Of a DNA stretch of 64,000 nucleotides, positions 3,038-52,404 are shown in pieces; positions within the stretch are counted from its first letter, which is position 1; each line of letters opens with the position of its first letter. Origin of the DNA: Verrucomicrobiia bacterium DG1235 (GTDB taxonomy: Bacteria; Verrucomicrobiota; Verrucomicrobiia; Opitutales; Opitutaceae); assembly GCA_000155695.1 (NCBI GenBank), contig DS990592.1, positions 4,926,538 to 4,990,537 of the forward strand. The letters are read 5' to 3'. The position numbers and the translations under genes were made by a program. The notes beneath the pieces were generated by a model. It searched no databases and was not told the DNA's origin. It worked only from the letters and a program-made list of their open reading frames with translations.

Positions 3038-3952
3038 TTAGAGCAGGGCGATGGCGAGGACGAGAGAGACGATTGAAAGAAGGGTGCTGATGATCACGAT
3101 GTTTCGAGCCATGACGCTGTCGTTGCCCAGCATCTCAGCGAGCACGTAGGAGAAAATGGCGGTGGGACAGGCGAGGAAGATGACGGTGACCTTCAGGCTG
3201 ACGGGGTCGAGTCCGAGAGAGCGGCCGACGAAGTAGCCGAGGATAGGGCTGAAGGCGACATTTATGAGCGAGGCGACGACTGAGAGGCTGATGCGGCCTT
3301 TGATTTCTTCGAATTTTAGGCCGGCTCCGAGGCCTATGAGAGCCAGGGGAAGCGCGAGTTGTCCGATGGCTTCGAGGGAGCGGCGGGCCATTACAGGGAT
3401 TTCCCAGCCCGCGAGGTTGAGAGCAAATCCGATGGCGCAAGCGAGGATGAGAGGATTGCGCAGGCCGTGTTGCCAAATTGCTTTGAGAGGGTGTTGGTTT
3501 TCGGTTTTGGCGTGGAGGATGAGCAAGGCAACGCCAGTGATGTTGTAAACGAGAATGCAGATGCCGCTGCTGAACATGCCGAGATCAAGTCCTTCCTGTC
3601 CAAGAGCGAAGTAGACGACGGGAAATCCGACGAATGCAAGGTTGCCACGGTAGCTGCCTTGGATGAATGCCCCGATGGAGTAGCGAGGGACTTTAAGGAG
3701 AAACACTAGGGCGTATCCAAGTACAATGGACGCGGCTATGACAATGAGGAGCGTATACAGAATCCCGATACCGGGTTCGTCTCGGAGATCGATCTCGGCG
3801 ACTTTGTACAGGAGGAGCGCGGGAAGACCCCAGAAGTAGGTCAGTCGATTCAGTTCTCGAAAGAAGCCATCGGCGAAGAAGCGGGCCTGCGACAAGGATT
3901 TACCGAAGATTATGAGGATGAGAACTGGTACTATACTTTCCAATACGACCAT
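3038..3952 (-). CDS. AEC-family (auxin efflux carrier-like) permease
   Basis: 304 residues, almost entirely hydrophobic with about ten transmembrane segments in the usual 5+5 arrangement. Family signs are the N-terminal VPVLILIIFGKSLSQ, the GSYRGNLAFVGFPVVY segment and a late CPTAIFSYVLAEMLG segment. AEC members export or import organic acids such as malate or small anions across the inner membrane; the substrate here cannot be told from sequence. It ends head-to-head with the DUF1963 gene (convergent, 33 bp apart), so no operon is indicated. Confidence 0.85.
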   Translation of the reverse strand: MVVLESIVPVLILIIFGKSLSQARFFADGFFRELNRLTYFWGLPALLLYKVAEIDLRDEPGIGILYTLLIVIAASIVLGYALVFLLKVPRYSIGAFIQGSYRGNLAFVGFPVVYFALGQEGLDLGMFSSGICILVYNITGVALLILHAKTENQHPLKAIWQHGLRNPLILACAIGFALNLAGWEIPVMARRSLEAIGQLALPLALIGLGAGLKFEEIKGRISLSVVASLINVAFSPILGYFVGRSLGLDPVSLKVTVIFLACPTAIFSYVLAEMLGNDSVMARNIVIISTLLSIVSLVLAIALL

Positions 3953-4167: not shown

Positions 4168-5250
4168 TTGATCCACCCGAAAAAGAAGATCCTGCTGATT
4201 GACGATGATCCCTCTGTCAGCGATGCCTTGCAGATGCTGTTAAGGGACGAGTTCGATACCCACTCCGCTGCTACAGTGAGGGATGGCGTTCGATTGTTCG
4301 ACTCTTTGAGCCCAAATGCAGTGATTCTTGATCTGCATTTGCCCGACAGCCACGGTTTGGAAGCTCTTCGCTCGATCCGTAGCATGGATAGGTTTGCTCC
4401 TGTGATTATCCTCACGGGATTCGCGACGCTGGAGGCGGTAGAGGAATCGCTACGTCTGGGCGCTTCTGATTGTTTGCACAAGCCGTTCGACGCTTCAGTC
4501 CTAAAGTCGCGCCTGCGGGAGTTGACGATCGACGAAGAGCCTGTTGTCGAGGCGTCGGCGGTGGGTGAGGCGGCGGAAAAGTACGATTTCAAGGATGCTT
4601 GGCCAGAAGATTTGGCGTCGTCCGCGTTTTTGCACGATATCAGCAATCCGCTCACCAGCCTGATGGCGTTTTCCACCTTGCTGAAGGAGAGTTTTTCCGA
4701 CTCGAAGAAGTGCGAGGAGCTTTCTGGGATGATTTTCGAGAACATTTCTTATCTCTCGTCGCTGATTCAGCAATGGCGCTCGTTTTCCGAACCGGACACT
4801 CTTGAGGATGATTGCTCTGAGATGGGAGAAATCGCCGACCAGGCGATAAAGCTGGTGCAGCTTCGGGCCGAGGCCAAGGGAGTGGCGATGATTCTTCATT
4901 TGAGCGACGACAAGGTTCGCCCGTCTTTGAACCAGCATGCGGTGGTTCGGATTTTGGTAAACCTGCTGCAAAACGCGATTGAAGCTGTTGAACGCGATAC
5001 CGGAAAGGTGAATTTTCACGCCCGTATGAAAGGCGGATCCGTTGAATTCATTGTACACGACAATGGCTGCGGCATTGCGCCTGCTCTGATTCAGAAGATT
5101 TTTCAACCCCGATATACAACAAAGAAAAAGGGCACCGGTCTCGGGCTGTACATAGCGAGAACTATTGTAGAGTCAGCCAAGGGAGCGATATCGATCTGTT
5201 CGCGACCAGGCCGGGGCACGAGTTTTACAGTACAGCTTCCCAAACAGTAA
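4168..5250 (+). CDS. Response regulator-histidine kinase fusion (REC-HisKA-HATPase)
   Basis: 360 residues. Residues 6-120 are a receiver domain: KILLIDDDPS, phospho-acceptor D55 in VILDLHLPD, and the Lys in LHKPF. A kinase follows with H156 in FLHDISNPLTSL, an N-box LLQNAIEA, a G1 box DNGCGIA and a G2 box GTGLGLYIA, all intact. It is soluble with no membrane segment, so it probably relays phosphate from another kinase. Start is TTG at 4168: an in-frame stop lies at 4159 and the first receiver strand begins at residue 6, so no ATG fits. Its stop overlaps the ATG of the next gene (TAATG). First gene of the five-gene signalling operon ending at 11003. A hydrophobic 73-residue frame at 3981-4202 overlaps its start and was not accepted. 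Confidence 0.88.
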   Translation: MIHPKKKILLIDDDPSVSDALQMLLRDEFDTHSAATVRDGVRLFDSLSPNAVILDLHLPDSHGLEALRSIRSMDRFAPVIILTGFATLEAVEESLRLGASDCLHKPFDASVLKSRLRELTIDEEPVVEASAVGEAAEKYDFKDAWPEDLASSAFLHDISNPLTSLMAFSTLLKESFSDSKKCEELSGMIFENISYLSSLIQQWRSFSEPDTLEDDCSEMGEIADQAIKLVQLRAEAKGVAMILHLSDDKVRPSLNQHAVVRILVNLLQNAIEAVERDTGKVNFHARMKGGSVEFIVHDNGCGIAPALIQKIFQPRYTTKKKGTGLGLYIARTIVESAKGAISICSRPGRGTSFTVQLPKQ

Positions 5251-6686
5251 TGCCATCAATTCCCGATCTTGAAAACGAAAGTCTAGTTCTCTGCAAAAAC
5301 AGTCAAGGCACACAGTTACGCGCTACTTTGATGCGCATGACTCGGTATCTGGCGACCTTCGAGGTATATAACCCTTACAGTATTTTACAGTTGTCGGAGG
5401 CGTTAAGCGACTTCGAGATTATTATCAACTCCCGTACGGTTTATCGAGGCAGAGCTATCGTAAGCAACATGGTAAATACGGGCTTGGTGCTGGTCTGCGA
5501 GGCCTCGCTTGATGACGAAGCTTGGATGGATGTTGAGATTCTTTCTCCGGCGGCGCAGGTGGAGCGGCTTGCCGAAGACTTTGATCGTCTGATTAAGGAT
5601 TGGAACAAGCTTGAGAACGTATCGCCCGAACTCAAAATCAATGTTTCTGACATCGAGACTTTGTTGACGGATTTGCAGCGGTGGACGGAACAGCTGGAGA
5701 TCGCGGTCCGATCGTCGCCTCCACCTGATCGAGCTCGAAATGAAATTCAGGTAATCGAGAAGATAAATTCGTTGATATCTCCTGTCATTGCTGAGCAGTT
5801 TGGGAAGTTTGAGTCTATAACGGCTACGGTTTCAGAGGAGGCTATCGCCATTCACCGAGCCTACTGTCGCCGTCAGCTTCATCCTCTGGTGATGTGTGCT
5901 CCATTTGTCCATCGGACTTACGATAAGCCGTTGGGCTACGCTGGTGACTACGAGATGGTGAATATGATTCTTCGAGATCCAAATGAGGGAGCTTCGATAT
6001 TCGCCAAGGTTCTGAACAGTCAGTTCTTAGCGGCGCCACCAGCTGAAGCGCATCGCAACCGAATCGTTTATCTGATTGAAATGCTGTCCCGGGAAACGCG
6101 TCGCCGCGTCCGTTTGAGCAAGAGTGCTCGCATCTTCAATCTTGGATGCGGTCCGGCAAAGGAGGTGCAGGAGTTTTTGGCGAATGAAGACCTTTGCGAG
6201 CGGGCTGAATTCGCATTGCTCGACTTCAACGAAGAGACGATCAAGCAGACGAGCCATCTTCTAAACGACTTGAAAGCGAAACATCGTCGCTCGACTTCGA
6301 TTCGCATGATTCAGCGTTCCGTTAACCAGATATTGCGTGAGGGGGCGAAGATTGGGGACGTGGAGGAAGCTCCCACAAAGTACGATATCGTCTATTGCGC
6401 GGGGCTATTCGATTATTTGTCGGATCGGGTATGTCAGCGCCTGATAGAAACGTTTTACAATATGACAGCTCCAGGTGGCTTGGTTGTCGTAACAAACGTG
6501 GACGAGAGCAATCCGATGCAAGGGGTGATGGAGTATGTCATGGAGTGGCATTTGATATATCGAAACTCAGAGCAACTTATGGCTTTGGCTCCGAAAGAGG
6601 CGAAAGCTGAGGATATGAGGGTATTGAAAGATCCTTCAGGGGTGAATATCTTTTTAGAGATTCGAAAGCCCGAATGCCATGCCTGA
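5250..6686 (+). CDS. SAM-dependent methyltransferase, PhcB-like with extra N-terminal domain
   Basis: 478 residues. Residues ~285-475 form a class I methyltransferase: motif I FNLGCGPAKEVQEFL (residues 296-310), acidic loop LLDFNEE (D325), then YDIVYCAGLFDYLSDRV and a PGGLVVVTNVDESNP strand. These match proteins annotated as 3-OH palmitic acid methyl ester (EF) synthesis methyltransferases, the PhcB group of Ralstonia. Residues 1-95 are beta-rich and look PilZ-like (RGRAIVSNMVNTGLVLVC), but no clear c-di-GMP motif is visible; 100-200 are helical. It starts at 5250 overlapping the kinase stop and its end overlaps the next ATG by 8 bp, indicating translational coupling. The link to a fatty-acid methyl ester signal is inference from family and neighbours. 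Confidence 0.75.
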   Translation: MPSIPDLENESLVLCKNSQGTQLRATLMRMTRYLATFEVYNPYSILQLSEALSDFEIIINSRTVYRGRAIVSNMVNTGLVLVCEASLDDEAWMDVEILSPAAQVERLAEDFDRLIKDWNKLENVSPELKINVSDIETLLTDLQRWTEQLEIAVRSSPPPDRARNEIQVIEKINSLISPVIAEQFGKFESITATVSEEAIAIHRAYCRRQLHPLVMCAPFVHRTYDKPLGYAGDYEMVNMILRDPNEGASIFAKVLNSQFLAAPPAEAHRNRIVYLIEMLSRETRRRVRLSKSARIFNLGCGPAKEVQEFLANEDLCERAEFALLDFNEETIKQTSHLLNDLKAKHRRSTSIRMIQRSVNQILREGAKIGDVEEAPTKYDIVYCAGLFDYLSDRVCQRLIETFYNMTAPGGLVVVTNVDESNPMQGVMEYVMEWHLIYRNSEQLMALAPKEAKAEDMRVLKDPSGVNIFLEIRKPECHA

Positions 6687-9366
6687 AGCCGAATCCCATG
6701 AGGAGGAGGCTTTGCGGCTTCGATTCTTCGAATACAACAAGTCGACTCGAATAGCTAACTCGCGAGTCGGTACTTTGCTGATCGTTTTGTTGATGCCCTT
6801 CGGCTCTTTGCTGGACTATTTCGTCTACCCAGAGCAGCTAGGCTTCTTCTTTTTCCTGAGAATCTTGTGCTCGGTGATAGCCCTGTTTTTTTGGTGGATC
6901 ATGAAAGGGCCGCTAGGTTTGCGGTTCTATCGCGTGTTTGGACTGTTTCTATTCGCATTGCCCTCAGTGTTCATCAGTTTGATGATCTACTATACCGAAG
7001 GGGTAAGTTCGCCCTATTACGCTGGATTGAATTTGATGCTGATTGGGCTCTCGTGGGTTGCTCAAATGTATGTAGTCGAGAGTCTGATTTCGGTTTTACT
7101 GACGCTTTTAATCTACGGCTTAGCCTGTTATTTTCATGGAGCGGTCTCGATTCCTCTCCTTTTCAACAACTTGTACTTTATAGTTTTGACGGGAACGATC
7201 GGCGTTACTGGCAGCTATTTTCTGAATCGTTCGCGTTATCGCGAGTACGCGTTGCGGCATGAGCTCGACGAAAATAGGAGCGAACTAGAGGCTTCCAACC
7301 TCAAGCTGGTCGAGATGGACAAGGCCAAGACGAATTTCTTCGCGAATATTAGTCATGAGCTTCGCACTCCGCTTACTCTTCTAATTGGTCCTCTCGATAG
7401 GTTGCGTCACAATGGCGACCAACCCTCTGCGAAGGAACGCGAGGAGCTGCTGGACATCATGCAGCAGAATGCGATGCGTCTCATGCGCCTGATCAATGAC
7501 TTGCTCAATCTCGTGCGCTTGGATAGCGGCACATTGCAGCTGCGTCCTGCGACCCTCGAGCTTCGTCACTATCTCGAAGGGATTTGTCGATCCTTCTATC
7601 CGATGGCTAGTGAGCGACGGCTCGACTTTACTTGGGAAATCGAGGACGGCGGGCAGCCAAACGTGAATCTCGACCGCGACAAGGTAGAGAAGATTCTTCT
7701 TAATTTACTTTTCAACGCGATTAAGTTTACCCCGCCCGGCGGCAAAATCATCTTACGAGCCCGCCGTGACGGCGAATTCTTGAGAATCGAAGTAGAAGAT
7801 AGCGGGCAAGGGATCGCGGCGGAGGAGTTGGCTAGCATCTTCGATCGTTTCTGGCAGGCGGAGACTTCGTCGAACCGGCGCTACCAAGGTGTGGGAATTG
7901 GGCTGGCGCTTGTCCGCGATCTTGCGCGGCTGCACGGCGGCGACGTGGAAGCGAGCAGTGTTCAAGGCGAGGGCACTGTGATGCGAGTGAGTCTAAACGC
8001 GGAGGTTCCGGTCGAGCCTTTGCCGCTTGAAATAAGCGAAGGTAAGTCACCTGTGGATACAAAGTGGCTCGAGAAGCTCTATCGGAGAGCTGAGTTTTTC
8101 CCTTCACATGCGGCAGTCAAGCCGACTGGTGAAGAAGACGAACAAGAGGATGAGGCAGTGGATTCCGTCGCGGATTTAAGCGACGATTCCGAGGCGAGTA
8201 GGCCAGCGATACTGATAGCGGACGACGAGCCGGAGATGATGCGCTTTCTCCGTTCTCAATTGAGCGGTCGTTACCGCGTAGATGAAGCGAGAGATGGAGC
8301 GGAGGCGCTAGAGATTGCCTCGAAGCGTCGCCATCATCTTATTCTACTGGATTTTATGATGCCTCAAGTCGACGGTATCGAAGCGACTCGTCGCTTGCGG
8401 GAAATGCCGAGCCATCGCGGCGTGCCGATTATCATTCTTACGGCGCGAGCAGACGAGGAGGTGAAATTTCAGGCTTTGGACGCGGGAGCGACGGACTTTT
8501 TGACAAAGCCGTTCTCGTCGACGGAATTGCTCGCTCGGTGCAGGAATCTCGCTTCGGTCTACGAAATGCAGCAGCAGATCGAAGACCGAACGGTTAGGCT
8601 CGAGAAAGCGCTCGAGCAAATCAAGCAGACTGAGACGCAGATGGTACAGCAGGCGAAAATGGCTTCGCTTGGGCAACTCAGCGCGGGGCTTTTGCACGAG
8701 GTGAACAATCCGCTTAACTTTGCCACCACTTCCATCCACTTGCTGAGAAAGAGGCTAGGGAATTCGCCTCATCCGGAGCCCGAGTTGCTGGAGAAGCCAC
8801 TGACGGATTTGCATGACGGGATCCGGCGCGTGTCGTCAATTGTATCCAGCTTGCGCGAGTTCACTCATCCGGACACGGTTCGTTTCGAACGGGTCGATTT
8901 GAGGACGGCTCTCAATACTGCGATACGTTTTGTGCAGATTCCCGCTGCGGAAATCACCCTAGTTCAGGAGTTGGAAGGCAGTCCGATGATTAGCGGAAAT
9001 CAGAATCAGCTGATGCATGTATTCATTAATTTGTTGCAGAACTCCGTGGATAGTTTGCGCGAGCGTGGCGGAGAAGGACGAGAGATCCGAATTCGCTGCA
9101 GTGAGGTAGAGGAGCGGGTATCACTTGTTTTCGAGGATAATGGGATGGGTATATCCCCTGATGAAATAGATCGGGTTTTCGATGCCTTTTTTACTACGAA
9201 GAAAGTTGGACAAGGAGTGGGTTTAGGCCTCAGCATATGTCACCGTATCATCCAACAACATAAGGGCTCGATAAACGTGGAGAGTGAGGCAGGAGAATGG
9301 GCCCGCTTTATTATGGAGTTCCCCGTTTACAGCCGAAAATCTCCAGCCGTATCCATAACTAAATGA
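6679..9366 (+). CDS. Hybrid sensor kinase with two kinase modules, PhcS/CqsS-like
   Basis: 895 residues. About six membrane helices lie in residues 30-185, including a SSPYYAGLNLMLIGLSW stretch, without a sizable periplasmic loop. First kinase: H226 in NISHELRTPLTLL, N346, G1 DSGQGIA, G2 GVGIGLALV. Receiver: 510-630 with D558 in LLDFMMPQVDG. A second complete kinase follows: H673 in GLLHEVNNPLNFA and a HATPase with DNGMGIS and GVGLGLSI near the C terminus. Membrane-embedded sensors of this type (PhcS, CqsS, LqsS) detect lipophilic autoinducers; that role is inferred. The kinase-receiver-kinase order suggests an internal phosphorelay. Overlaps its upstream and downstream neighbours (8 and 4 bp). 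Confidence 0.85.
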   Translation: MPEAESHEEEALRLRFFEYNKSTRIANSRVGTLLIVLLMPFGSLLDYFVYPEQLGFFFFLRILCSVIALFFWWIMKGPLGLRFYRVFGLFLFALPSVFISLMIYYTEGVSSPYYAGLNLMLIGLSWVAQMYVVESLISVLLTLLIYGLACYFHGAVSIPLLFNNLYFIVLTGTIGVTGSYFLNRSRYREYALRHELDENRSELEASNLKLVEMDKAKTNFFANISHELRTPLTLLIGPLDRLRHNGDQPSAKEREELLDIMQQNAMRLMRLINDLLNLVRLDSGTLQLRPATLELRHYLEGICRSFYPMASERRLDFTWEIEDGGQPNVNLDRDKVEKILLNLLFNAIKFTPPGGKIILRARRDGEFLRIEVEDSGQGIAAEELASIFDRFWQAETSSNRRYQGVGIGLALVRDLARLHGGDVEASSVQGEGTVMRVSLNAEVPVEPLPLEISEGKSPVDTKWLEKLYRRAEFFPSHAAVKPTGEEDEQEDEAVDSVADLSDDSEASRPAILIADDEPEMMRFLRSQLSGRYRVDEARDGAEALEIASKRRHHLILLDFMMPQVDGIEATRRLREMPSHRGVPIIILTARADEEVKFQALDAGATDFLTKPFSSTELLARCRNLASVYEMQQQIEDRTVRLEKALEQIKQTETQMVQQAKMASLGQLSAGLLHEVNNPLNFATTSIHLLRKRLGNSPHPEPELLEKPLTDLHDGIRRVSSIVSSLREFTHPDTVRFERVDLRTALNTAIRFVQIPAAEITLVQELEGSPMISGNQNQLMHVFINLLQNSVDSLRERGGEGREIRIRCSEVEERVSLVFEDNGMGISPDEIDRVFDAFFTTKKVGQGVGLGLSICHRIIQQHKGSINVESEAGEWARFIMEFPVYSRKSPAVSITK

Positions 9367-10622
9367 CAGGCCAATACGATTATAAGAAGTTCCGCGTTTT
9401 ATTCGTGGACGATGAAGAGCAGACGACCGACTTGATGCGTGAGTATCTTGTGGATACGTTTGACATCGTGACCGCGTATAATGCGGAAGACGCATGGGAG
9501 CTCTTTCAGGAGAACCCAGGTTCATTTGCGGTGGTGGTTACCGACCAGCGCATGCCCGGCGCGCAGGGTACGGAACTGCTTGAGAAGATACGCGCTGAGC
9601 GTCCTCGCAGCATTCGAATCCTCTGCACGGCTTACGCGGATATCGATGCCGCGATCGACGCGGTCAATGTGGGGGCGATTTACAAGTACGTCACTAAACC
9701 CGTCGAAACTCCAGAGCTGGAGATCACAATCAAGCGGGCGATGGAGTTCTTTTTGATTCAGCGCGAGCGAGATTTGCTCATGCGCGAAAAGATGTCGGCG
9801 GTGCAGAGGCTTATGATGACGGATCGTCTGATCAGTCTGGGTATCTTTGCCGCCGGTCTTAACCACCACATGCGAAACGGCCTGACGGCGGTGAAGACTT
9901 TCCTCGATTTGGCTCCGCTTAAGTTGCAGAGCGAAAATGTGGATATTCGTTCTCTTCGGAATCCGAACTACTGGACGCATTTCTACGCGACCGCGCAGGA
10001 ATCGATGAATCGCGTGCTTGAGCTACTGAAGGAGGTGCAGGAGATTCCCGAGCCGCCCAGCGCTCCGACGGGTGACAGCGTTGATTTGAATGAGGTCATC
10101 GGTTCGGCGATCGAGCGTGAAAAGGCAGCTTTCGATAAGCGTTTCATCAGCGTGAATCTTAAGTCGGTGACAGTGCCGCCGATTGCTGCGAACAAGGCTA
10201 TGATCGATCGCCTTTTCGAATTGCTTTTGCGGGACGAGTCCGAGAATGCGAATGAGAACGGAAGCATTCAGATATCACTCGAAGCGGATAGCGCGGAGCA
10301 AGGTTGGGATGGAGTGCGCGTGGTGCTGGAGGACGATGGCCCCGGTCTGACGTCCGCTAACATGCAATGTCTCTTTGATCCGTTCTTCACTCGAAGCGGC
10401 AAGCCTGACCAGTACGGGATAAATCTTTTGGCAGCCTTTTTCCTCGTGCATCATCATTCCGGCACCATTGACGTCGAAAGGTCGAAAATGGGCGGTGCCC
10501 GCTTCAATATCCTTTTGCCGCTGGATCCGGGATCGATCCCGACCGCTCAGGGCGAGGAAGCGTTTCTGCAGCGCGTGATGGAAGCGGAACGCGCTTGGGA
10601 GAAAAAGTTGTTGGGAGACTAG
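9363..10622 (+). CDS. Receiver plus degenerate histidine kinase (PhcR/PhcQ-like)
   Basis: 419 residues. Receiver at 8-130: VLFVDDEEQ, D61 in VVVTDQRMPGAQG, Lys in YVTKPV. It is followed by a helical dimerisation region with GLNHHMRNGL (H168/H169), a variant of the usual His box. The ATPase part is eroded: the N-box position reads LLLRDESENA instead of an LLxNAxxA pattern and the G2 loop reads QYGINLLAA, though G1 EDDGPGL remains. It may receive phosphate or act as a scaffold rather than autophosphorylate. ATG 9363 overlaps the preceding stop (ATGA). The REC-plus-kinase-like layout is like that of PhcR in Ralstonia. Confidence 0.8.
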   Translation: MTGQYDYKKFRVLFVDDEEQTTDLMREYLVDTFDIVTAYNAEDAWELFQENPGSFAVVVTDQRMPGAQGTELLEKIRAERPRSIRILCTAYADIDAAIDAVNVGAIYKYVTKPVETPELEITIKRAMEFFLIQRERDLLMREKMSAVQRLMMTDRLISLGIFAAGLNHHMRNGLTAVKTFLDLAPLKLQSENVDIRSLRNPNYWTHFYATAQESMNRVLELLKEVQEIPEPPSAPTGDSVDLNEVIGSAIEREKAAFDKRFISVNLKSVTVPPIAANKAMIDRLFELLLRDESENANENGSIQISLEADSAEQGWDGVRVVLEDDGPGLTSANMQCLFDPFFTRSGKPDQYGINLLAAFFLVHHHSGTIDVERSKMGGARFNILLPLDPGSIPTAQGEEAFLQRVMEAERAWEKKLLGD

Positions 10623-10628
10623 AGGCAC

Positions 10629-11003
10629 ATGGTCGCGCTAAAGGCAGATTCAATTCGAAATCGAGTACTCATCATCGATGACGACCGTATGGTACTGGAG
10701 TCGCTCAACATGCTTTTTGCCCATTACGGCTGGGAGGTAGTCGCGGTCTCTTCGTGCGAAGAGGCTTTGGAGCGTCTTGATGAGACGGACTATCGTCTCG
10801 CTGTGGTGGACCATTTGATGGAGGGAAAGAATGGCTTGGAATTGATAAGGGATCTGAAGTCGAATTCCTCCGCTCAAGTGTTTATGCTTACCGGATGCGT
10901 CGAGCCGAATCTGCGGGCGGCTGCGGAGAAGGCGGGCGTGGATAGGTTCTTTTTCAAGCCGGTGCAGGCGGCGACGATGATTAAGGCGCTGGACGAGTTT
11001 TAG
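10629..11003 (+). CDS. Stand-alone response regulator receiver
   Basis: 124 residues, a single CheY-like domain: VLIIDDDRMV at the N terminus, phospho-acceptor D61 in LAVVDHLMEGKNG, Thr in FMLTGCV and Lys in FFFKPVQ. There is no output domain, so it acts by protein contact or as a phosphate shuttle. It starts 6 bp after the previous stop and closes the five-gene signalling operon. The next gene converges on it 18 bp away, so the operon ends here. Confidence 0.88.
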   Translation: MVALKADSIRNRVLIIDDDRMVLESLNMLFAHYGWEVVAVSSCEEALERLDETDYRLAVVDHLMEGKNGLELIRDLKSNSSAQVFMLTGCVEPNLRAAAEKAGVDRFFFKPVQAATMIKALDEF

Positions 11004-11021: not shown

Positions 11022-13382
11022 TCAAATAGGCCAGAAGAAGGGCAGGGCAAGCATCACGACGATGAAAACGATGATTGCTAGCGGGGCTCCTACTTTGATG
11101 TAGTCGATAAATCGATACCCGCCGGGTCCCATAACCAAGATGTTGGCGGGATGGGATATGGGGCTGGTGAAGCTGGCGGAAGCGGCCATGGCGATGGCCA
11201 TCATGCCGGTCTGGGGTGGTATTCCGAGATCGTTGCAGGACTTGATGACGATGGGAGCCATGAGGACGACAAGCGCTGCGGTGGGAATGATGGTCGTGGC
11301 GGCTGCGGTGATTAGATAGAGCGCTCCGATGACGACCCAAGGTCCGTATCCTCCGACTGAGGACAATACTCCTTGGGCTAGGAGTTCGGCGGCTCCGGAG
11401 CGTTCGATGGCGAGTCCGAGGGGAAGCATGCCGGCGATGAGAAAGACGGATTTCCACTCGATAGCGGCGTAGGCGTCTTCCATCTTCAGGCATCCAGTCA
11501 GTACCATGAGCATAGCTCCGGCGATGGCGGTGATGGCGATGGGAAACCAGCCGAAGAAGACGGGCACGAGCACGGCTAGCATGATGGCTGAGGAGAGGAT
11601 GGCCTTGTCGCTTCGGTAGCTGCGCTTTTCGACTTGGGAGAGGATGATGAAGTCCTTCTCGGTCTGAAGCTGGTCGAGTTTCTCTCGTGGACCCATGAGC
11701 AGGAAGCTGTCGCCGTGGTGAAGGGCGACGTTGGCAAGATTTGAGCGGTAGGAACGGGCGGCTCGCATGATGCTGAGAAGCTGCACGCCGAAACGGGCTT
11801 GGAAGTCGATCTCGGCGGGAGTGTTGCCGGGCAATTGGGATTTTGGGGAGAACGTGGCTTCGGCGAGCCCAACGTTGCCTGATTCGAGAAGCTCGGCTTC
11901 CTCCTTTTCGGAGAAGCGCATTTCGAGACTTTGCAGGGACTTGATGATGGAGAGGTCTTCGAGGCGTCCGTGGAGGGTGAGCCGATCTCCGGCACGAATT
12001 TTTTCGTCAGGTTCGGGTAGAAGGATTTCTTCGCCCGACTGTCTTTGGATCTTCAATACATGGAGGTCGAAGCTGCGACGGAGTTCGCTTTCGTGTAGCG
12101 GCTTGTCGGCGAGCCAGGAGGCGGGAGGCACGGTAACCTCGAAGAGGCGTTGAGCAATATCGCCGTAGCGTTGCAGGTCTTGTTCGGAGGCGTTTTCGAC
12201 TTGGGTGAAGTTGGGATCTTCTCGGATGGCTTCGATCCGATGTATCCGTCCTTGTAGGACAAGCCTGTCTCCCACTTGTAGGGTGGCTGATGCGACGTCG
12301 TTCTCGCGGGTAGAGCCGGTTTGGCGGATGAGGAGTATGTTTAGCCCGAAGCGCTTGCGGAAGTCGAGCTGGCGAATGGTTTGGCCGGCGAGTTCGGACT
12401 CTGGAGGGATGTTTGCTTCGACCAGCAGGGTATCCGGAGAGAGCAAGGTTCCGGAGTCGCTGGCGATTTTCTCTGCTTGGAGCTCCTGCCAGCTTTTCAG
12501 TTCGTTGAGGCGCTCGACGCGGCCTTGGATGAAGAGGGAGTCGCCGCTTGCGAGCACGAAGTCGGGACCGGGCGAGAAGTGGGCTTCACCGCCACGCTGG
12601 AGGGCGACGACACGCAGGCCAAGGGCTTTGCCCAGGCGGCTTTCGCGGAGCGTTGCGCCTGCGAGGGTGGATTTGGGGAGAAGGCGGACGAAGAAGGAGC
12701 GTTCGCCCAATTGGTATTCCTTGAAGAGGGCTTTGGCGTCTGCCCCGCCGGTAAGGTTGGCGGCGGGGCCATTGTCCGGAAGGAGCAGGCGAGAGGCCAG
12801 GGCGACGAAGGCGACGCCTGCGAGCATGACGACAAGTCCGATCGGAGTGAAGTCGAAGAGGCCGAAGGGAGTGTAGCCTTCTCGGGCGAGGGCATTGCTG
12901 ATCAGAAGATTGGGAGGCGTGCCGATGAGGGTGGTGAGTCCGCCCAGCAGAGAGCCGTAGGCGAGCGGCATGAGGAGCTTTGAGGGGCTGACGCCGGTTT
13001 GGCGGGCGACGTTGAGGACGACGGGAAGCATGAGGGCGGCGACTCCGATGTTGTTCATCAAGGCGGAGAGGACGCCGGAGGTGAGCATGATGACGAAGAT
13101 CATGCGGGACTCCGTTTTTCCGGTGAACTTGAGGACGTGAACGCCGATGATGCTGGCCACGCCCGTCTGGGCGAGGCCCTCGCTGAGGATGAACATGGCC
13201 CATACGGTGATGACGGCGGGGTTGGCAAAGCCGGAAATGGCTTCTGTGGGCTCGATGATTCCTGTGAATGCCAGAGCGACGAGGACGAGTAGAGCGGTGA
13301 CGTCCATCCTGACTTTTTCCGCGATGAAAAGGATGAGCGCGGCGAGGAGGATACCGAGAACGAGAGCGATCTGAAGCGTCAT
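11022..13382 (-). CDS. SLC13 (DASS)-family permease with four RCK_C-like domains
   Basis: 786 residues. Two membrane halves (residues 1-205 and ~590-786) carry divalent anion/sodium symporter signs: FANPAVITVWAMFILSEGL, LMNNIGVAALMLPVV, GTPPNLLISNAL, and late TTIIPTAALVVLMAPI and SFTSPISHPANILVMGPG. Between them is a large cytosolic insert holding four repeats of the TrkA-C/RCK_C type, at about 226-295, 320-385, 413-482 and 505-572, each ending in a GDRLxLxGR-like turn. Family members move sulfate, dicarboxylates or other anions with Na+; the substrate is not determined here. RCK_C domains usually bind small ligands and gate transport. Monocistronic, convergent with the response regulator. 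Confidence 0.85.
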   Translation of the reverse strand: MTLQIALVLGILLAALILFIAEKVRMDVTALLVLVALAFTGIIEPTEAISGFANPAVITVWAMFILSEGLAQTGVASIIGVHVLKFTGKTESRMIFVIMLTSGVLSALMNNIGVAALMLPVVLNVARQTGVSPSKLLMPLAYGSLLGGLTTLIGTPPNLLISNALAREGYTPFGLFDFTPIGLVVMLAGVAFVALASRLLLPDNGPAANLTGGADAKALFKEYQLGERSFFVRLLPKSTLAGATLRESRLGKALGLRVVALQRGGEAHFSPGPDFVLASGDSLFIQGRVERLNELKSWQELQAEKIASDSGTLLSPDTLLVEANIPPESELAGQTIRQLDFRKRFGLNILLIRQTGSTRENDVASATLQVGDRLVLQGRIHRIEAIREDPNFTQVENASEQDLQRYGDIAQRLFEVTVPPASWLADKPLHESELRRSFDLHVLKIQRQSGEEILLPEPDEKIRAGDRLTLHGRLEDLSIIKSLQSLEMRFSEKEEAELLESGNVGLAEATFSPKSQLPGNTPAEIDFQARFGVQLLSIMRAARSYRSNLANVALHHGDSFLLMGPREKLDQLQTEKDFIILSQVEKRSYRSDKAILSSAIMLAVLVPVFFGWFPIAITAIAGAMLMVLTGCLKMEDAYAAIEWKSVFLIAGMLPLGLAIERSGAAELLAQGVLSSVGGYGPWVVIGALYLITAAATTIIPTAALVVLMAPIVIKSCNDLGIPPQTGMMAIAMAASASFTSPISHPANILVMGPGGYRFIDYIKVGAPLAIIVFIVVMLALPFFWPI

Positions 13383-17036: not shown

Positions 17037-18920
17037 ATGTTAGACCAGTTACGAAGACTTCTAGGGCATGATCAAGGGGGCCCGCTACTCGATTTGGAAA
17101 CATTGCGCCTAAGGGTGCTGAGACTTGCGCTGGGTTACGTTCTAATTTTTTCGGCTCCTGTGTTGCTTCTGTTGGTTTACCGTGGGCTGAGCGAGCATTG
17201 GAACTGGTACTTGTTGGTACAGATATTCGCTTATGTGGCTCTGGCGGTGGGTTTTTGGTCTTCGTCTCGAGGAGGTAGCAGAGGCCTGTCCCATCTGGTG
17301 GTGGTCGTCGTCATTCTAGTGGGAGTTTGTGGAATCGCTGCTTGGGGTCCGGCTCCGAGCCGTCTAATCGTTCTCAACTTCGGATGCGTGTTTGCGGCCA
17401 TGTTTCACAGCTGCAAGGCTTCTATGGGCACGCTCGCGGTCAGCATCGGCTTGGTCTCGCTGGCTGCTTACTTGAATCCTTATGTGGCCATTCTTGATGG
17501 CGGGGATTCGGTATCTGACCATACGGCCGGGCAATGGGTAGTCACCTTGTCCTCGTTTGCTTTCTACACGGTGTGCAGTGCGCTGTTGGTCGCATGGGTT
17601 ACCAAGACTTTGCAGAATACGATTACCGCGCTGCGAGGCCGTGAGCAGGAGCTTCAAAATTCCAATGACATTCTTAAGGAGCAGGCGGTGAAGCTTGAGG
17701 AGCAGGCGGTCGAACTAGAAGAGCAGGCTAAGGCTTTGAAAGAGGAGCGAGACCGAACGGAAGCCGCTTCAAAGGCGAAGGATCGGTTTTTGTCAGTGAT
17801 AAGCCATGAGCTTCGTACGCCGCTGAATCCGATTCTCGGTTTTCTGGATCTTTTGGAGGAGGATCAGGCCTTGCGCTCGGAGAGCAAGGACCAGTTGGAA
17901 TTGATGCGGCGATCTGGAGAGCACTTGCTGCTTATGATCGACAAGGTCGTCGACTTTTCGGAACTGGATCGCGGTGAGCTAACGCTTGTTAGGAACGAGA
18001 GAACTTGGGCGGAGTTGCGAAGGGACATCCGGAGTCGGCTGCAATTGCTGGCCGAGGAGAAGAACTTGGAGTTCCATGTGCACTGCGAGGGCGCGGCTCG
18101 TGATCGATTGGTTTTAGATAACCGCAGAACTTTGCAGATTATCGACGAGCTCGGCAGCAATGCCTTGAAGTTTACGGACAAGGGAAGTGTGGCGATAGCT
18201 CTGTGCTTAGCGAGCGGCGATGGAGGCAGGACGCATCGGCTTGCGATCGAAGTGAGTGACACGGGGTGTGGGATAGATTGCAAGGCGATCGATCGCTTGT
18301 TTGACCCGTTTGTGCAGGAGAAGTCCGGCTGGACGCGTGATGCGGGTGGATTTGGTCTGGGGCTATCCGCGTGTCAGGCAATAGCAGGAGCGATGGGCGG
18401 CGCCATTCGGGTGGAGAGCGAAATAGGAATTGGCTCGACCTTTACAGTGGAGATTCCTGTTGAGTTAGTGCTGGTGGGAACAACCGATCCCAAGCGAAAA
18501 AGCAAACTGATGCAGTTCACTCAGCCGCCGGAAGTACTGGTTGTTGAGGACGACCTCGTAAACCAAAAGGTAGTGACGGCTTTGCTCAAGAAATTGGGAG
18601 CCAAGACCGTTTGCGTGGACAACGGAAAGAAGGCAGTGGAGATCCTTCGTCCGGGGGCGTTCGATTTGGTGCTGATGGATATCAGCATGCCGGTTATGGA
18701 TGGGATCGAGGCGACGGAGGAGATTCGGAAAAACGATGCTTTGAAGGATTTGCCGATCGTAGCTCTGACGGCTCACTCGTATTCGAAATCTGAGAAAGCC
18801 TGTTTTGAGGCGGGAATGAATGGCTTTTTGACGAAGCCTGCTAAGGCAGATCAGTTGTTCGAAATAATCTCAAAGTTGATCGGGAAAAAACCGGAATCTG
18901 CCGAGGCGAGGTTGGGTTGA
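17037..18920 (+). CDS. Hybrid sensor histidine kinase (TM-HisKA-HATPase-REC)
   Basis: 627 residues. Five to six membrane helices in residues 28-190, then a Glu/Gln-rich coiled coil (about 200-245, repeated EEQAVELEEQA), then H257 in VISHELRTPLNPI, a HATPase with DTGCGID and GFGLGLSA, and a C-terminal receiver (500-615) with D548 in LVLMDISMPVMDG. No separate sensory PAS domain; the membrane part is presumably the sensor. The usual N-box Asn is present (LGSNALKFT). Monocistronic; no partner regulator is adjacent, so the phosphate target is unknown. Confidence 0.88.
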   Translation: MLDQLRRLLGHDQGGPLLDLETLRLRVLRLALGYVLIFSAPVLLLLVYRGLSEHWNWYLLVQIFAYVALAVGFWSSSRGGSRGLSHLVVVVVILVGVCGIAAWGPAPSRLIVLNFGCVFAAMFHSCKASMGTLAVSIGLVSLAAYLNPYVAILDGGDSVSDHTAGQWVVTLSSFAFYTVCSALLVAWVTKTLQNTITALRGREQELQNSNDILKEQAVKLEEQAVELEEQAKALKEERDRTEAASKAKDRFLSVISHELRTPLNPILGFLDLLEEDQALRSESKDQLELMRRSGEHLLLMIDKVVDFSELDRGELTLVRNERTWAELRRDIRSRLQLLAEEKNLEFHVHCEGAARDRLVLDNRRTLQIIDELGSNALKFTDKGSVAIALCLASGDGGRTHRLAIEVSDTGCGIDCKAIDRLFDPFVQEKSGWTRDAGGFGLGLSACQAIAGAMGGAIRVESEIGIGSTFTVEIPVELVLVGTTDPKRKSKLMQFTQPPEVLVVEDDLVNQKVVTALLKKLGAKTVCVDNGKKAVEILRPGAFDLVLMDISMPVMDGIEATEEIRKNDALKDLPIVALTAHSYSKSEKACFEAGMNGFLTKPAKADQLFEIISKLIGKKPESAEARLG

Positions 18921-48709: not shown

Positions 48710-48778
48710 TTCCTTTTTTACCCACTAATATCAATTGAGTGGTGACGGCGAAGGTTTTTGTCTGAAGTATCTATCGGT

Positions 48779-49372
48779 ATGTTCACTGCAGAGAAAGGTA
48801 AATACATTCCAAGTGTGAATGAATGTAACAGGGCCGCTCGAGTCAGCCGACTACTTAAGAGGGGGAGTAATCCTGAATTGGAGTTTGCAAAACGATGGGA
48901 CCCTAGAGGAGGTGACTACTGTGTGTATTGTTTACTGGAATCAGGGAAGCATGTCCGCTATATCGGAATTACAAGCCAAGCGATCGAAGTTCGATTGAAG
49001 CAGCACTTTGCTGATTGCGGACGTGCGAGTAACGTCTACAAGGAAAATTGGCTGAAGAGTTGTCAGGCAAGTGGTACACCGATTGATATCCATGTGATTC
49101 GCTCTGGTTTAAGCCTGGATCAGGCTGGGGCAATCGAGGTATTGTTGATTCAGCTGCTGAAACGACCGTTTCGACTTACAAACACTCATTCAGGGGGCTC
49201 ATCTGGATATGCTGGCCTGTCAGAGGAGAGTCGAAAGAAACACAAAAGAAATAGTATGGCAGGGCAGGTTAAATCTCTTGTGGTTGAGCAACAGCGGATT
49301 GATTTAGAGCGAGGATTTTGTGATCTCGAAGAATGGAATCAGCTTTGTGAAATCGAAGAAGGAGTGAAATGA
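48779..49372 (+). CDS. GIY-YIG nuclease with NUMOD3-like tail
   Basis: 197 residues from ATG 48779. A GIY-YIG domain at ~46-140: YCVYCLL for the GIY strand, HVRYIGIT for YIG (residues 59-65), catalytic-type Arg at R72 in EVRLKQH and Glu at E120 in GAIEVLLIQLL, followed by LTNTHSGGSSGYAG, which in homing-type members is followed by a NUMOD3 DNA-binding helix; LSEESRKKHKRN fits that. It cuts or nicks DNA in this family. The stop overlaps the start of the integrase-like gene (ATGA), so the two are translationally coupled. AT-richer than the flanking chromosome. Confidence 0.78.
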   Translation: MFTAEKGKYIPSVNECNRAARVSRLLKRGSNPELEFAKRWDPRGGDYCVYCLLESGKHVRYIGITSQAIEVRLKQHFADCGRASNVYKENWLKSCQASGTPIDIHVIRSGLSLDQAGAIEVLLIQLLKRPFRLTNTHSGGSSGYAGLSEESRKKHKRNSMAGQVKSLVVEQQRIDLERGFCDLEEWNQLCEIEEGVK

Positions 49373-50295
49373 TCGACTGGGAATCTGATTTTATAAAATA
49401 CCTTAGAGCTTGCGGTGTAACACTTCGAACCGAGAAAACTTATGTTAATTGGGTACGCAAATATATGGAATCTGGTTTCTTAGCGAATCCTCGGCGGTTT
49501 AGTGAAAGTGATTTAGGAGCTTTTTTGAATTACTTGAAGAGTGAAAAAGAGACGAGTAGCTCATCTCTAAACCAAGCTCGATATGCTCTATTGAAATTTG
49601 CAAAAAGTTTGAGCCTAGATTTTGATGAGGAACGTGTTCAGACGGTATCACGTAATACACCTCATAGAAATGTTGCGAGCCTGTCTTCTCGCGATTGTGA
49701 TCGATTAATAGATTCCCTGGAAGGTGATTCGCGTCTTCTAGTAGGGTTTTGCTATGGTTCAGGATTGAGAGCAAGTGAAGTCGTGGGTCTGCGAATTCGA
49801 GATATAGATCTGGCAAGGCGCTTGATAACCGTAGGTGGTGGTCCAGCGGCTAGACCACGAGTCACGGTGTTCTCTAGTGAATTACTTAGCGATCTCGAAG
49901 TTCATATCGAATACTTGACTCGTCTTTTTTTGCAGGACCAAGAAATGCAGATTCAAGGAGTTTGGATAAGAGGAGAAAAAGCAGGTGCCCAGAAAGAACA
50001 ACCGCTTGATTGGCAGTGGGTTTTCCCGTCTCGCAAATTGTACCTTGATCCTCGAAATGGAAAAAGAACTCGACATCACATTACTACGAATACTCTGCGC
50101 GGAGCCATTCGGAGTGGATGTGAAAAGGCTGGACTAAAAAGGGGAATCTCCGCCGGAGTTCTGCGCGATAGCTTTGGTGCGCATCTCTTGAGAGCTGGAG
50201 TCGGTGCTCGAGATATTTCTGAAATTATGGGACTAAATAGCCGTGATGGGTTGTTCGAAGAGGCCTCGAAGATTTCGAGCGGTAGAGATGCATAA
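49369..50295 (+). CDS. Integron-integrase-like tyrosine recombinase with degraded active site
   Basis: 308 residues. N-terminal SAM-like domain 7-90 (LRTEKTYVNWVRKYM). Catalytic domain retains R134 in SGLRASEV and R266, and the IntI-specific insert is recognisable (DWQWVFPSRKLYLDPRNGKR then RHHITTNTLRGAIR). However the catalytic Lys position reads GGPAARPR, HTLRHS reads GVLRDS (G263, D267), the LLGH motif reads IMGL, and no Tyr-containing segment exists before the stop at 50295. The protein is therefore probably unable to recombine DNA. It may be a decaying relic or a DNA-binding partner of the coupled GIY-YIG protein. No attC sites were found. Confidence 0.75.
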   Translation: MIDWESDFIKYLRACGVTLRTEKTYVNWVRKYMESGFLANPRRFSESDLGAFLNYLKSEKETSSSSLNQARYALLKFAKSLSLDFDEERVQTVSRNTPHRNVASLSSRDCDRLIDSLEGDSRLLVGFCYGSGLRASEVVGLRIRDIDLARRLITVGGGPAARPRVTVFSSELLSDLEVHIEYLTRLFLQDQEMQIQGVWIRGEKAGAQKEQPLDWQWVFPSRKLYLDPRNGKRTRHHITTNTLRGAIRSGCEKAGLKRGISAGVLRDSFGAHLLRAGVGARDISEIMGLNSRDGLFEEASKISSGRDA

Positions 50296-50651: not shown

Positions 50652-50837
50652 TCACATTTCTTTTGCATTATCCTCATCGAGGATTCGTTTGTATCGAGCT
50701 AGCCTTTGTTCCCTGCGTATGCGAACTGCTTCCTGATTGAAATTTACAATCTTCGAACAGCTATCCTCTGGTGATGGCTCTTCCAGGGGCAGGGATAACT
50801 GGTTTTTGTTCTTCGCCTTATGGTTTTTGTTGTTCAT
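50652..50837 (-). CDS. Small clamp-motif protein coupled to dCTP deaminase
   Basis: 61 residues from ATG 50837; 20 bp overlap with the 3' end of the deaminase gene, so translation is probably coupled. The N terminus is Lys/Asn-rich, then carries NQLSLPLEE (QLSLPL at residues 13-18), the same hexapeptide as the beta-clamp binding motif of Hda. The C-terminal half is a charged helix (NFNQEAVRIRREQRLARYKR). No known family. The motif suggests contact with the replication sliding clamp, so it may sense replication for the neighbouring defence enzyme; this is inference. Confidence 0.65.
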   Translation of the reverse strand: MNNKNHKAKNKNQLSLPLEEPSPEDSCSKIVNFNQEAVRIRREQRLARYKRILDEDNAKEM

Positions 50838-52404
50838 CCAGATCTTTGGCTTGCTGATCCAGTGCATACTTTTCGAGAACGCTAACGGCTTCAAGGTTTA
50901 TTCTTGACCTTGGGGATTCCGTTTTGGGATCTGAGTCTCGTAACTTGCAGGTTTTGAGGTCTTTACGTTTCTGAGACGCGTAGGATAAAAGATCGAGATA
51001 GCGGGATGGGGCCAATCCCTCAAAGGGGAAAAGCCGAACTTGATTTTGATCAGAATTGTCGAGAGTCAATGTATCTCGATGTAAGATAGTAGCTCGGCTT
51101 TTAGGGTACGGCTCTATGAAGTGAATGTTCATGATTCCACTCAGAACTATGTGCCTTGCGCAGTTGTGGCATGGAAATGTTGTCACATAGATACTGCCTC
51201 CTGTGATTTCCGAAGAATGATCCTTAAATGCATTGAATATAGCATGCATTTCAGCGTGAATGGCCCTAGAATATTCAGTTATGTCGCCTATTTCTGAGTC
51301 TTTTAATAATTTTTCGATTTGAGGAGAATCATGGAGTTCAAGTTTGTCAGAGAAATGAGTGCGGATTGTGTCGGCTAGTTTACTTATAATTTTGTTTTTT
51401 GTAACATCGTTTAAGCACTGTTTTTCTTGCCAGTTGTAGCATCGATTATCCCATGTTGTTGGGGGACTGTTTTTATTGTTGTGTGTGTTTTCATCGTTGT
51501 ACACCCCTCCCCCTGCCTTGGGGACATCGTTCCATCCTAATCCGATAATGTTGCCGCTTTTACTAACTACAGAAGCTCCGACTTGTCTCGACATGCAGGC
51601 GCTATTGGAAGCGGAAGACCAGGCGGCGTACATAGATTTTTCGTGAATATCTGGAGTTATTAATTTAGTTCCAAAAACGATATCATTGAACCTCTTTATC
51701 TTGGTTTGTACATGGTCTATATCCGTTCCGTTTGTGTTGATGAAATAATCGGATTGGTGGAAAACTTTACCTAGTTTTTGTGTGTATTCGGGTTCTGATT
51801 CTTTATGTCCTTTACTGTCTGCCTCGATGAGATCTTCTGCCTTAATGTTTAGTGAAGTATTACCTCCTGTAAGTTTTGCTATTCTTGTTTTTCTGTCTGA
51901 GAAAACGCCAATTAAGAAAAATGAGTCGCCGTAAACTTTTTTTAAAATATTGATTTCGTCAGGATGCTTCAGGGAATCAATCAGATAACAAATTCTATCA
52001 GATTCGTTTTGGACTCTTTTATTTTCTTTTTTATAAGCTAAAATGTCTGCAATGGCTGATACAGCCAAGTAGTTTGATTGTTTGTGTTTCTTTCTGATGT
52101 TGTCGCCAGCTTTTATATAGTTGTTCTTTCGCTTGATTATATCATCAGAATCAAGGATTTCGTGAGAAATCTCTTGGATTAGCCGGCTGATCTTAATTTT
52201 GTGAACTTTGTAGTTTCTACTTTCTATTTCACCGGCATAACTATTAACGACATCTTGTATGGGGGTCCCAATCGGGCAGCAGAATGCGACGACCAATTCG
52301 TCAGTAATTGACTGAGATATTAGTTCGTCAGCTTTATTGGATTTTTTGGTAGATGACTTTTCTGGAGTTCTCTCCTTTGGGACTCTTAGAGCTGATTCAG
52401 TCAT
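50818..52404 (-). CDS. Anti-phage dCTP deaminase (AvcD/DcdV-like)
   Basis: 528 residues. N-terminal ~250 residues are a nucleotide-kinase-like domain with FCCPIGTPIQDVVNSY (43-48 is the CPIGTP loop), in the place of the usual P-loop. The C-terminal half is a cytidine/deoxycytidylate deaminase: HAEMHAIF (H383, E385) and FPCHNCARHIV (C412, C415) coordinate zinc. This layout is that of the AvcD/DcdV defence family, which depletes dCTP and dCMP after phage infection. Known members are held inactive by an upstream RNA (AvcI) or peptide. It is AT-rich relative to flanking chromosome genes. Confidence 0.85.
   Translation of the reverse strand: MTESALRVPKERTPEKSSTKKSNKADELISQSITDELVVAFCCPIGTPIQDVVNSYAGEIESRNYKVHKIKISRLIQEISHEILDSDDIIKRKNNYIKAGDNIRKKHKQSNYLAVSAIADILAYKKENKRVQNESDRICYLIDSLKHPDEINILKKVYGDSFFLIGVFSDRKTRIAKLTGGNTSLNIKAEDLIEADSKGHKESEPEYTQKLGKVFHQSDYFINTNGTDIDHVQTKIKRFNDIVFGTKLITPDIHEKSMYAAWSSASNSACMSRQVGASVVSKSGNIIGLGWNDVPKAGGGVYNDENTHNNKNSPPTTWDNRCYNWQEKQCLNDVTKNKIISKLADTIRTHFSDKLELHDSPQIEKLLKDSEIGDITEYSRAIHAEMHAIFNAFKDHSSEITGGSIYVTTFPCHNCARHIVLSGIMNIHFIEPYPKSRATILHRDTLTLDNSDQNQVRLFPFEGLAPSRYLDLLSYASQKRKDLKTCKLRDSDPKTESPRSRINLEAVSVLEKYALDQQAKDLDEQQKP

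Follow-up and report, generated by a model that had tools for sequence, protein, structure and literature searches.

The question raised by the locus studied here is whether the Phc cell-density system of Ralstonia has a counterpart in Verrucomicrobiota, and what such a counterpart tells about its parts. The locus is a cluster of five genes (g1 to g5) at positions 4168–11003 of a 64,000-nucleotide stretch of contig DS990592.1 from Verrucomicrobiia bacterium DG1235; this whole stretch is referred to below as the window. The quorum signal of this plant pathogen, which acts at high cell density, is a fatty acid methyl ester; PhcB is its producer and PhcS its sensor (PMC8578825). A preliminary description, made from the window alone, had noted a resemblance of the cluster to PhcBSRQ. 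Our results allow us to conclude that the cluster is of the phcBSRQ type, that it is real, homologous and wider in occurrence than described, and that it recasts PhcS and PhcQ without representing a new principle. We consider it probable that it serves as a cell-density signalling operon of Verrucomicrobiota and works in the way proposed below.

The Cluster and Its Homology to the Phc Operon

The five open reading frames (ORFs) were found where the preliminary description had placed five genes with overlaps or gaps under 10 bp. All are on the forward strand, with junction overlaps of 1, 8 and 4 bases and then a 6-base gap from g1 to g5, while the genes on both sides (3038–3952 and 11022–13382) lie on the opposite strand. 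The Pfam domain order from g1 to g5 is REC-HK, methyltransferase, HK-REC-HK, REC-HATPase and REC (REC, receiver; HK, histidine kinase), which, together with hydropathy, agrees with the make-up described earlier: a REC-HK, a methyltransferase, a hybrid with six transmembrane (TM) segments and two kinases, a REC-degenerate kinase and a REC. The features are as follows (lengths in amino acids, aa).

4168–5250, forward: g1, soluble receiver-histidine kinase, 360 aa, TTG start (Pfam Response_reg and HATPase_c)
5250–6686, forward: g2, PhcB-type S-adenosylmethionine (SAM) methyltransferase, 478 aa (Pfam, profiles, tree)
5250–5534, forward: N-terminal six-strand beta domain of g2, common to PhcB (alignment, predicted structure)
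5319–5321, forward: codon of g2 R24, corresponding to PhcB R22 (alignment with R. pickettii PhcB)
5820–6683, forward: class I methyltransferase domain of g2
6679–9366, forward: g3, PhcS-type hybrid sensor TM-HK1-REC-HK2, 895 aa (Pfam HisKA/HATPase_c twice, Response_reg)
6679–7293, forward: six-TM sensory region of g3, homologue of the PhcS TM region, weakly MASE8-like (hydropathy, profiles)
7303–8007, forward: HK1 of g3, first kinase, H226
8200–8553, forward: internal receiver of g3, D558
8638–9333, forward: HK2 of g3, PhcS-type kinase, H673 (H-box His, as PhcS H230)
9363–10622, forward: g4, PhcQ-type receiver with a predicted pseudokinase part, 419 aa (Pfam Response_reg and HATPase_c; HisKA 17.3 of 26.9 bits)
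10629–11003, forward: g5, single-domain receiver, 124 aa (Pfam Response_reg)

All five genes occur in the same order in six other genomes of the genus (L022–L027; L numbers denote fetched loci), which argues that the arrangement is not due to chance. Both g1 and g5 are kept in seven of the eight same-genus genomes, the source genome included; the eighth (G005) has a distant version of the methyltransferase (42% identity) without g1 and g5 beside it. The source genome itself gave a single match to the g2 methyltransferase. Promoter-like and terminator-like sites at the cluster were no more numerous than in shuffled sequences.

Circularity was avoided by building profiles from betaproteobacterial sequences alone and searching them against 699 sequences, namely ORFs taken from the window and from 32 phylum loci, plus 150 shuffles of g2, g3 and g4. 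A scan of named genomes with a nine-row alignment (P. graminis first) had supplied 80 loci, out of at least 568 confirmed relatives, including Cupriavidus, Paraburkholderia, Janthinobacterium and Ralstonia; all 80 loci are taken by us to be betaproteobacterial from record titles and organism names. The preliminary description had suggested comparing the methyltransferase and the six-TM region with PhcB and PhcS, and both were matched by these profiles (E 1.1e-93 for the g2 methyltransferase, 6.2e-27 for the g3 TM region), as were the g2 N-terminal domain (1.2e-26) and the g4 C-terminus (3.2e-5). At E 10 or better, the matches were solely ORFs already known to have Phc-cluster domains, with none among the 150 shuffles. 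Furthermore, a tblastn search of g2 against plasmids returned 142 records, one of them on a Paraburkholderia graminis plasmid (96% coverage, 38.7% identity), where the methyltransferase is followed downstream by a TM-HK sensor and then receivers.

The R. pickettii set consists of PhcB (470 aa), PhcS (442 aa), the REC-HK PhcR (368 aa) and PhcQ (335 aa), and in the window cluster the counterparts of B, S and Q are adjacent on one strand, in the order that they have in Ralstonia. Taken together, the profile searches and the trees described below show, at the level of sequence, that g2 is homologous to PhcB, g3 to PhcS and g4 to PhcQ, with the Ralstonia order kept, a stronger relation than the resemblance first noted. 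One could suppose an ordinary two-component cluster with a chance methyltransferase, its Phc likeness being that of shared REC and HK domains, each of which does match more than 100 NCBIfam models. The non-kinase parts, however (the methyltransferase with its N-terminal domain and the TM region), match Phc-only profiles, which among the 699 sequences only Phc-cluster ORFs do, and the gene order is kept in two phyla; we regard this explanation as extremely improbable.

The Methyltransferase and Its Possible Substrate

The g2 protein is 35–40% identical to betaproteobacterial PhcB in the 48 rows compared (37–40% in 37, 36% in 10 and 35% in one), out of 79 unbroken rows at hand. The PLGYAGDY and AGLFDY motifs are common to both types, and Arg22 of R. 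pickettii PhcB aligns with g2 R24; R22C is a published PhcB site in GMI1000 (PMC6989110). The preliminary description had raised the possibility of a clade unrelated to PhcB, and in a 68-row tree g2 lies inside the PhcB group, five methyltransferases that have only the C-terminal part fall outside it, and L133, with no visible N-terminal domain, falls inside; the outgroups are few and on long branches. The N-terminal beta domain, earlier held to be unlike Ralstonia, proved to be a regular part of PhcB: it is present at all 80 betaproteobacterial PhcB loci, those of Ralstonia and Cupriavidus included (at L060 the methyltransferase frame is broken in two). The predicted structure has it as a six-strand beta domain; the structural comparison of the methyltransferase model spanned mainly residues 220–475. 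An assignment of this domain to PilZ finds no support in its sequence, with an HHalign value of 0.2% against 13 PilZ rows (99.7% for PilZ halves against each other) and no match to Pfam PilZ at E 1 in any of 43 members.

Methyltransferases akin to the C-terminal half of PhcB were also seen next to GGDEF-EAL genes on Rhizobium and Roseateles plasmids (L019:4866–5903 and L021:4935–5981). L150:2089–4146 is a single open frame of 685 codons in which a receiver precedes the N-terminal domain and methyltransferase of a PhcB-type protein. This natural fusion fits the possibility, raised in PMC6989110, that the PhcQ receiver acts on PhcB, and so bears on direct receiver control of PhcB.

A type I polyketide synthase (PKS) gene lies directly upstream of phcB, on the same strand, in 10 of the 33 phylum loci searched (the window being one of the 33): in all nine of the same-order group and in L147 (L028–L034, L146, L147, L148). 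The products are 2082–2130 aa long, and 2603 aa in L147, where by eye the start looks like an acyl-AMP ligase. One PKS scanned with Pfam has ketosynthase, acyltransferase, dehydratase, enoylreductase, ketoreductase and acyl carrier protein domains (KS-AT-DH-ER-KR-ACP), with no thioesterase match at E 0.001. No relative of the upstream PKS was found in 81 betaproteobacterial phc loci as fetched. The position of the PKS fits an acyl substrate for PhcB, and in the PKS-bearing loci we infer that this substrate may be PKS-made. The PKS gene beside phcB in ten loci is a strong hint on what PhcB methylates.

The same data raise the alternative that the cluster is homologous to Phc but retuned, such that g2 O-methylates another acid or a polyketide and g3 senses that product, rather than 3-hydroxy fatty acid methyl esters. 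The identity of 35–40% to PhcB, the PKS gene that precedes phcB in ten of the 33 loci (so that acyl chains can differ between lineages) and the GGDEF-EAL neighbours of C-terminal-half methyltransferases in Rhizobium and Roseateles all speak for it. It has against it the N-terminal domain, PLGYAGDY, AGLFDY and the TM consensus TEGxxSPYYAGLNL, which both sides have in common. We consider a retuned signal a serious possibility, albeit the less probable one.

The Hybrid Sensor

Hydropathy reveals six hydrophobic segments within g3 residues 25–170, and six also in R. pickettii PhcS; the TM consensus given above is common to the phylum and betaproteobacterial sensors. Pfam MASE8 (PF20968) matches 18 of 44 PhcS/g3 TM regions, at best with 1e-8, but g3 itself scores 15.5 bits against a cut-off of 26.2, and the TM region is weakly like a PDB diguanylate cyclase (E 0.021). 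These likenesses would suit a cluster without cell-cell signalling, in which g2 would modify a membrane acid or a protein and g3-g4-g1-g5 would form an internal phosphorelay sensing the membrane state, as MASE-type domains may; that no PhcA was found also favours it. Against this, Ralstonia PhcB makes, and PhcS senses, the quorum ester (PMC8578825), and we hold an internal phosphorelay to be unlikely.

Among 31 phylum clusters, the order TM-HK1-REC-HK2 is found in 29; L149 has TM-HK2 only, and the L145 sensor is interrupted. The latter (L145:10589–13306) is a 906-codon frame of a hybrid sensor in which the linker from HK1 to the receiver contains an in-frame stop; being one frame with a single stop, it was not used as a split sensor that would prove a relay. 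H226 (HK1), D558 (REC) and H673 (HK2) are invariant in 29/29 hybrids, 28 or 29 of which also conserve the N and G boxes of HK1 and HK2. The H-box His of R. pickettii PhcS is at position 230, and PhcS H230 is published for R. pseudosolanacearum OE1-1 (PMC11960443).

All 80 betaproteobacterial clusters have a TM-HK sensor beside the methyltransferase, and in none of them were an HK1 and receiver found between the TM region and the kinase (at L110 the contig ends inside the sensor). Compared with the two g3 kinases, 81 of 81 betaproteobacterial PhcS kinases favour HK2 over HK1, the margin being at least 88 bits. HK2 is therefore, judged by sequence, PhcS's own kinase, and HK1 with the receiver is the extra (or lost) piece. 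An additional kinase had been announced in the preliminary description, which was correct, but it is the first kinase, not the second as claimed there, that is foreign to Ralstonia.

The TM+HK2 tree does not place the hybrids on one side of a branch (approximately unbiased test, p 2.9e-5). One branch (90/90, below the support mark) joins the betaproteobacterial sensors with the nine hybrids of the same-order group; the remaining hybrids enclose the simple sensors that occur in the phylum. The HK1-REC distances track the TM+HK2 distances (Mantel r 0.944, with 0 of 2000 permutations as high), which suggests that the HK1-REC piece has long travelled with the rest of the sensor. If the piece arose once, at least one loss within the phylum would follow; a loss in Ralstonia as well would depend on where the tree is rooted.

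Gene 4, PhcQ and the Other Receiver Proteins

PhcQ is a receiver with a C-terminal part called uncharacterized in PMC6989110. A quick tree of 73 receiver proteins, which has many long branches, unites g4 with PhcQ and with the PhcQ-like proteins found in the phylum (Shimodaira–Hasegawa-like approximate likelihood ratio test 96 for this group of 47 rows) and leaves PhcR and g1 outside. Gene 4 goes with PhcQ, not with PhcR, which the preliminary description had named as the REC-kinase protein of the Ralstonia system. The description of gene 4 as a degenerate kinase holds: g4 itself matches HATPase_c, and none of 14 g4-like rows retains either N-box Asn or the last G2 Gly, with the H-box His kept in 11/14 (the other two of the 16 rows are ordinary REC-HKs and were set aside).

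By HHalign, the PhcQ C-terminus (80 rows) matches the PhcQ-like set (17 rows) with 98.0% and E 1.8e-13 over 201 columns, and the latter matches the g4-like set (16 rows) with 99.6% and E 2.1e-24 over 244 columns, vs. 0.2% for PhcQ with PhcR. The direct comparison of PhcQ with the g4-like set covered 60 columns only (95.0%). Because of this chain of profiles and of g4 itself, the C-terminal part of PhcQ is best read as the remnant of a histidine kinase after stepwise decay. In the PhcQ model (predicted local distance difference test 87.4), a receiver is accompanied by long helices and by a small domain of mixed type; fold searches with this model matched receivers and in effect covered the receiver, with the C-terminal half barely included.

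In g1 the H-box, the N-box and most G-box residues are kept, and HisKA reaches 26.3 of 26.9 bits, just under the cut-off. For this protein, the REC-HK2 half of g3 is a better match than PhcR is, and an identity of g1 with PhcR is not demonstrable by such comparisons.

Distribution and Origin

The methyltransferase was found in 15 of 95 relatives, the source genome included (E 0.001), in 22 genomes of a phylum sample of 387 (E 1e-20), and in 14 of 198 genera among good genomes of the phylum; the cluster is patchy in the phylum. Thirty-three further loci were fetched, of which L035, with two short methyltransferase pieces only, was set aside; the N-terminal domain with the methyltransferase is present in 30 of the remaining 32 (31 with the window). 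At L153, the N-terminal domain of the methyltransferase escapes the profile and no sensor is near. L154 and L134 were observed to be second, shorter Phc-like loci, with a methyltransferase lacking the N-terminal domain beside a simple TM-HK2 sensor, and L154 also has a g4-like gene. In the class around R. pickettii, 4 of 274 genomes matched, R. pickettii among them, two over the methyltransferase half only.

Of 57 relatives, 7 contain the degenerate 16S probe site, the source genome being without it, and all seven read GCTGCCACCCGTAGGTGT, which we take to be the EUB338-III site of Verrucomicrobia; this points to an assignment to Verrucomicrobiota. The phylum marker family TIGR02598 gave no match, in the controls either. 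A comparison of 6,937 proteobacterial genomes, with other phyla outside its subject, found that phc has a limited distribution within Betaproteobacteria (PMC10653808). We found no earlier report of PhcB in this phylum in the literature searched (mostly by title and thin in subscription papers); automatic annotations may already use the name.

With outgroups, the methyltransferase tree nests betaproteobacterial PhcB among the phylum sequences, the outgroup branches being very long; without them, the midpoint lies between the two groups. A derivation of betaproteobacterial PhcB from verrucomicrobial stock was not adopted, in view of this midpoint, the very long outgroup branches and a sampling of two groups. 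This cell-to-cell signalling looks older and wider than Proteobacteria. It is conceivable, though rather doubtful, that Phc is at home in Verrucomicrobiota and Ralstonia is a reduced offshoot, the full system being a two-kinase relay with PhcQ as a former kinase whose receiver acts on PhcB (one species has a receiver fused to it), and with a dedicated PKS that, in one lineage, builds the acyl chain for PhcB to release as a methyl ester. If so, each lineage could have its own designer lipid as signal.

Proposed Mechanism

For the phcBSRQ-type operon that we favour, we infer an ester product, its sensing, an inner relay and feedback on g2. Most probably, g2 would methylate a fatty acyl chain with SAM as the methyl donor (the Ralstonia chain being 3-hydroxy C14/C16), and the ester would leave the cell and be sensed by the six-TM region of g3. 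HK1 would then phosphorylate the internal receiver, which would gate HK2, and HK2 would act on the receivers of g4, g1 and g5. With its ATP-binding motifs lost, g4 may be a phospho-switch that works by protein contact, g2 included, which would give positive feedback on signal synthesis. Since no PhcA was found, the final output would be another regulator, encoded outside the cluster.

Several points weigh against this proposal. The substrate and product of g2, the ligand of g3 and the output have been deduced, and the order of events between HK1, the internal receiver and HK2 is itself a proposal. The 35–40% identity of g2 to PhcB is low enough for a changed substrate. No relative of the upstream PKS was found in the window cluster or in the source genome at E 1e-30, whereas a positive control genome did match. 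The C-terminal part of PhcA, the LysR regulator of a complete Phc circuit, had no relative in 5/5 phylum genomes at E 0.001, and the control search gave clear matches in 2/2 control genomes (94% and 72%). The direct profile match between g4 and the PhcQ C-terminus is weak (E 3.2e-5), and the R. pickettii PhcQ C-terminus alone matches no Pfam kinase family at E 10. Finally, g1 groups with other REC-HKs of the phylum and not with PhcR in a tree with weak supports.

The presence of phc across another phylum, with a fuller sensor, makes open points of Phc testable outside a plant pathogen.

Other Observations in the Window

Another HK-REC hybrid kinase is encoded at 17037–18920 (forward). At 50821–52404 (reverse) there is a 528 aa deaminase that matches the PADLOC anti-phage dCTPase model (E 9.1e-147) and Pfam dCMP_cyt_deam_1. 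An integron-integrase-like tyrosine recombinase at 48758–50295 (forward; TIGR02249, E 2.1e-52, below the cut-off) adjoins a GIY-YIG ORF, and both sit in a stretch of lower guanine-plus-cytosine content at 44–52 kb.

Comparison with Known Systems

With Phc of Ralstonia, Cupriavidus and Paraburkholderia the window cluster has in common a full-length PhcB with its N-terminal domain, the six-TM region of PhcS with an HK2-type kinase, a PhcQ-type receiver protein, the B-S-Q order and an operon without a DNA-binding domain. It differs in the HK1 and receiver between the TM region and the kinase, in a gene 4 whose kinase part is motif-poor but still recognisable, in an extra REC-HK in front and a lone REC behind, and in that no PhcA was found and the cluster has no demonstrable PhcR. 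It resembles the MASE8 sensor domains (PF20968) in the match of 18 of 44 TM regions and departs from them in the sub-threshold match of g3.

CqsA/CqsS and LqsA/LqsS likewise have a six-TM sensor kinase beside a synthase, and RpfC/RpfF diffusible signal factor signalling likewise brings a hybrid sensor together with a synthase, but an unrelated one. Lqs and Phc differ in genes and signal (PMC10653808). For RpfC/RpfF, PMC6989110 describes an action of the sensor's receiver on the synthesis of the signal.

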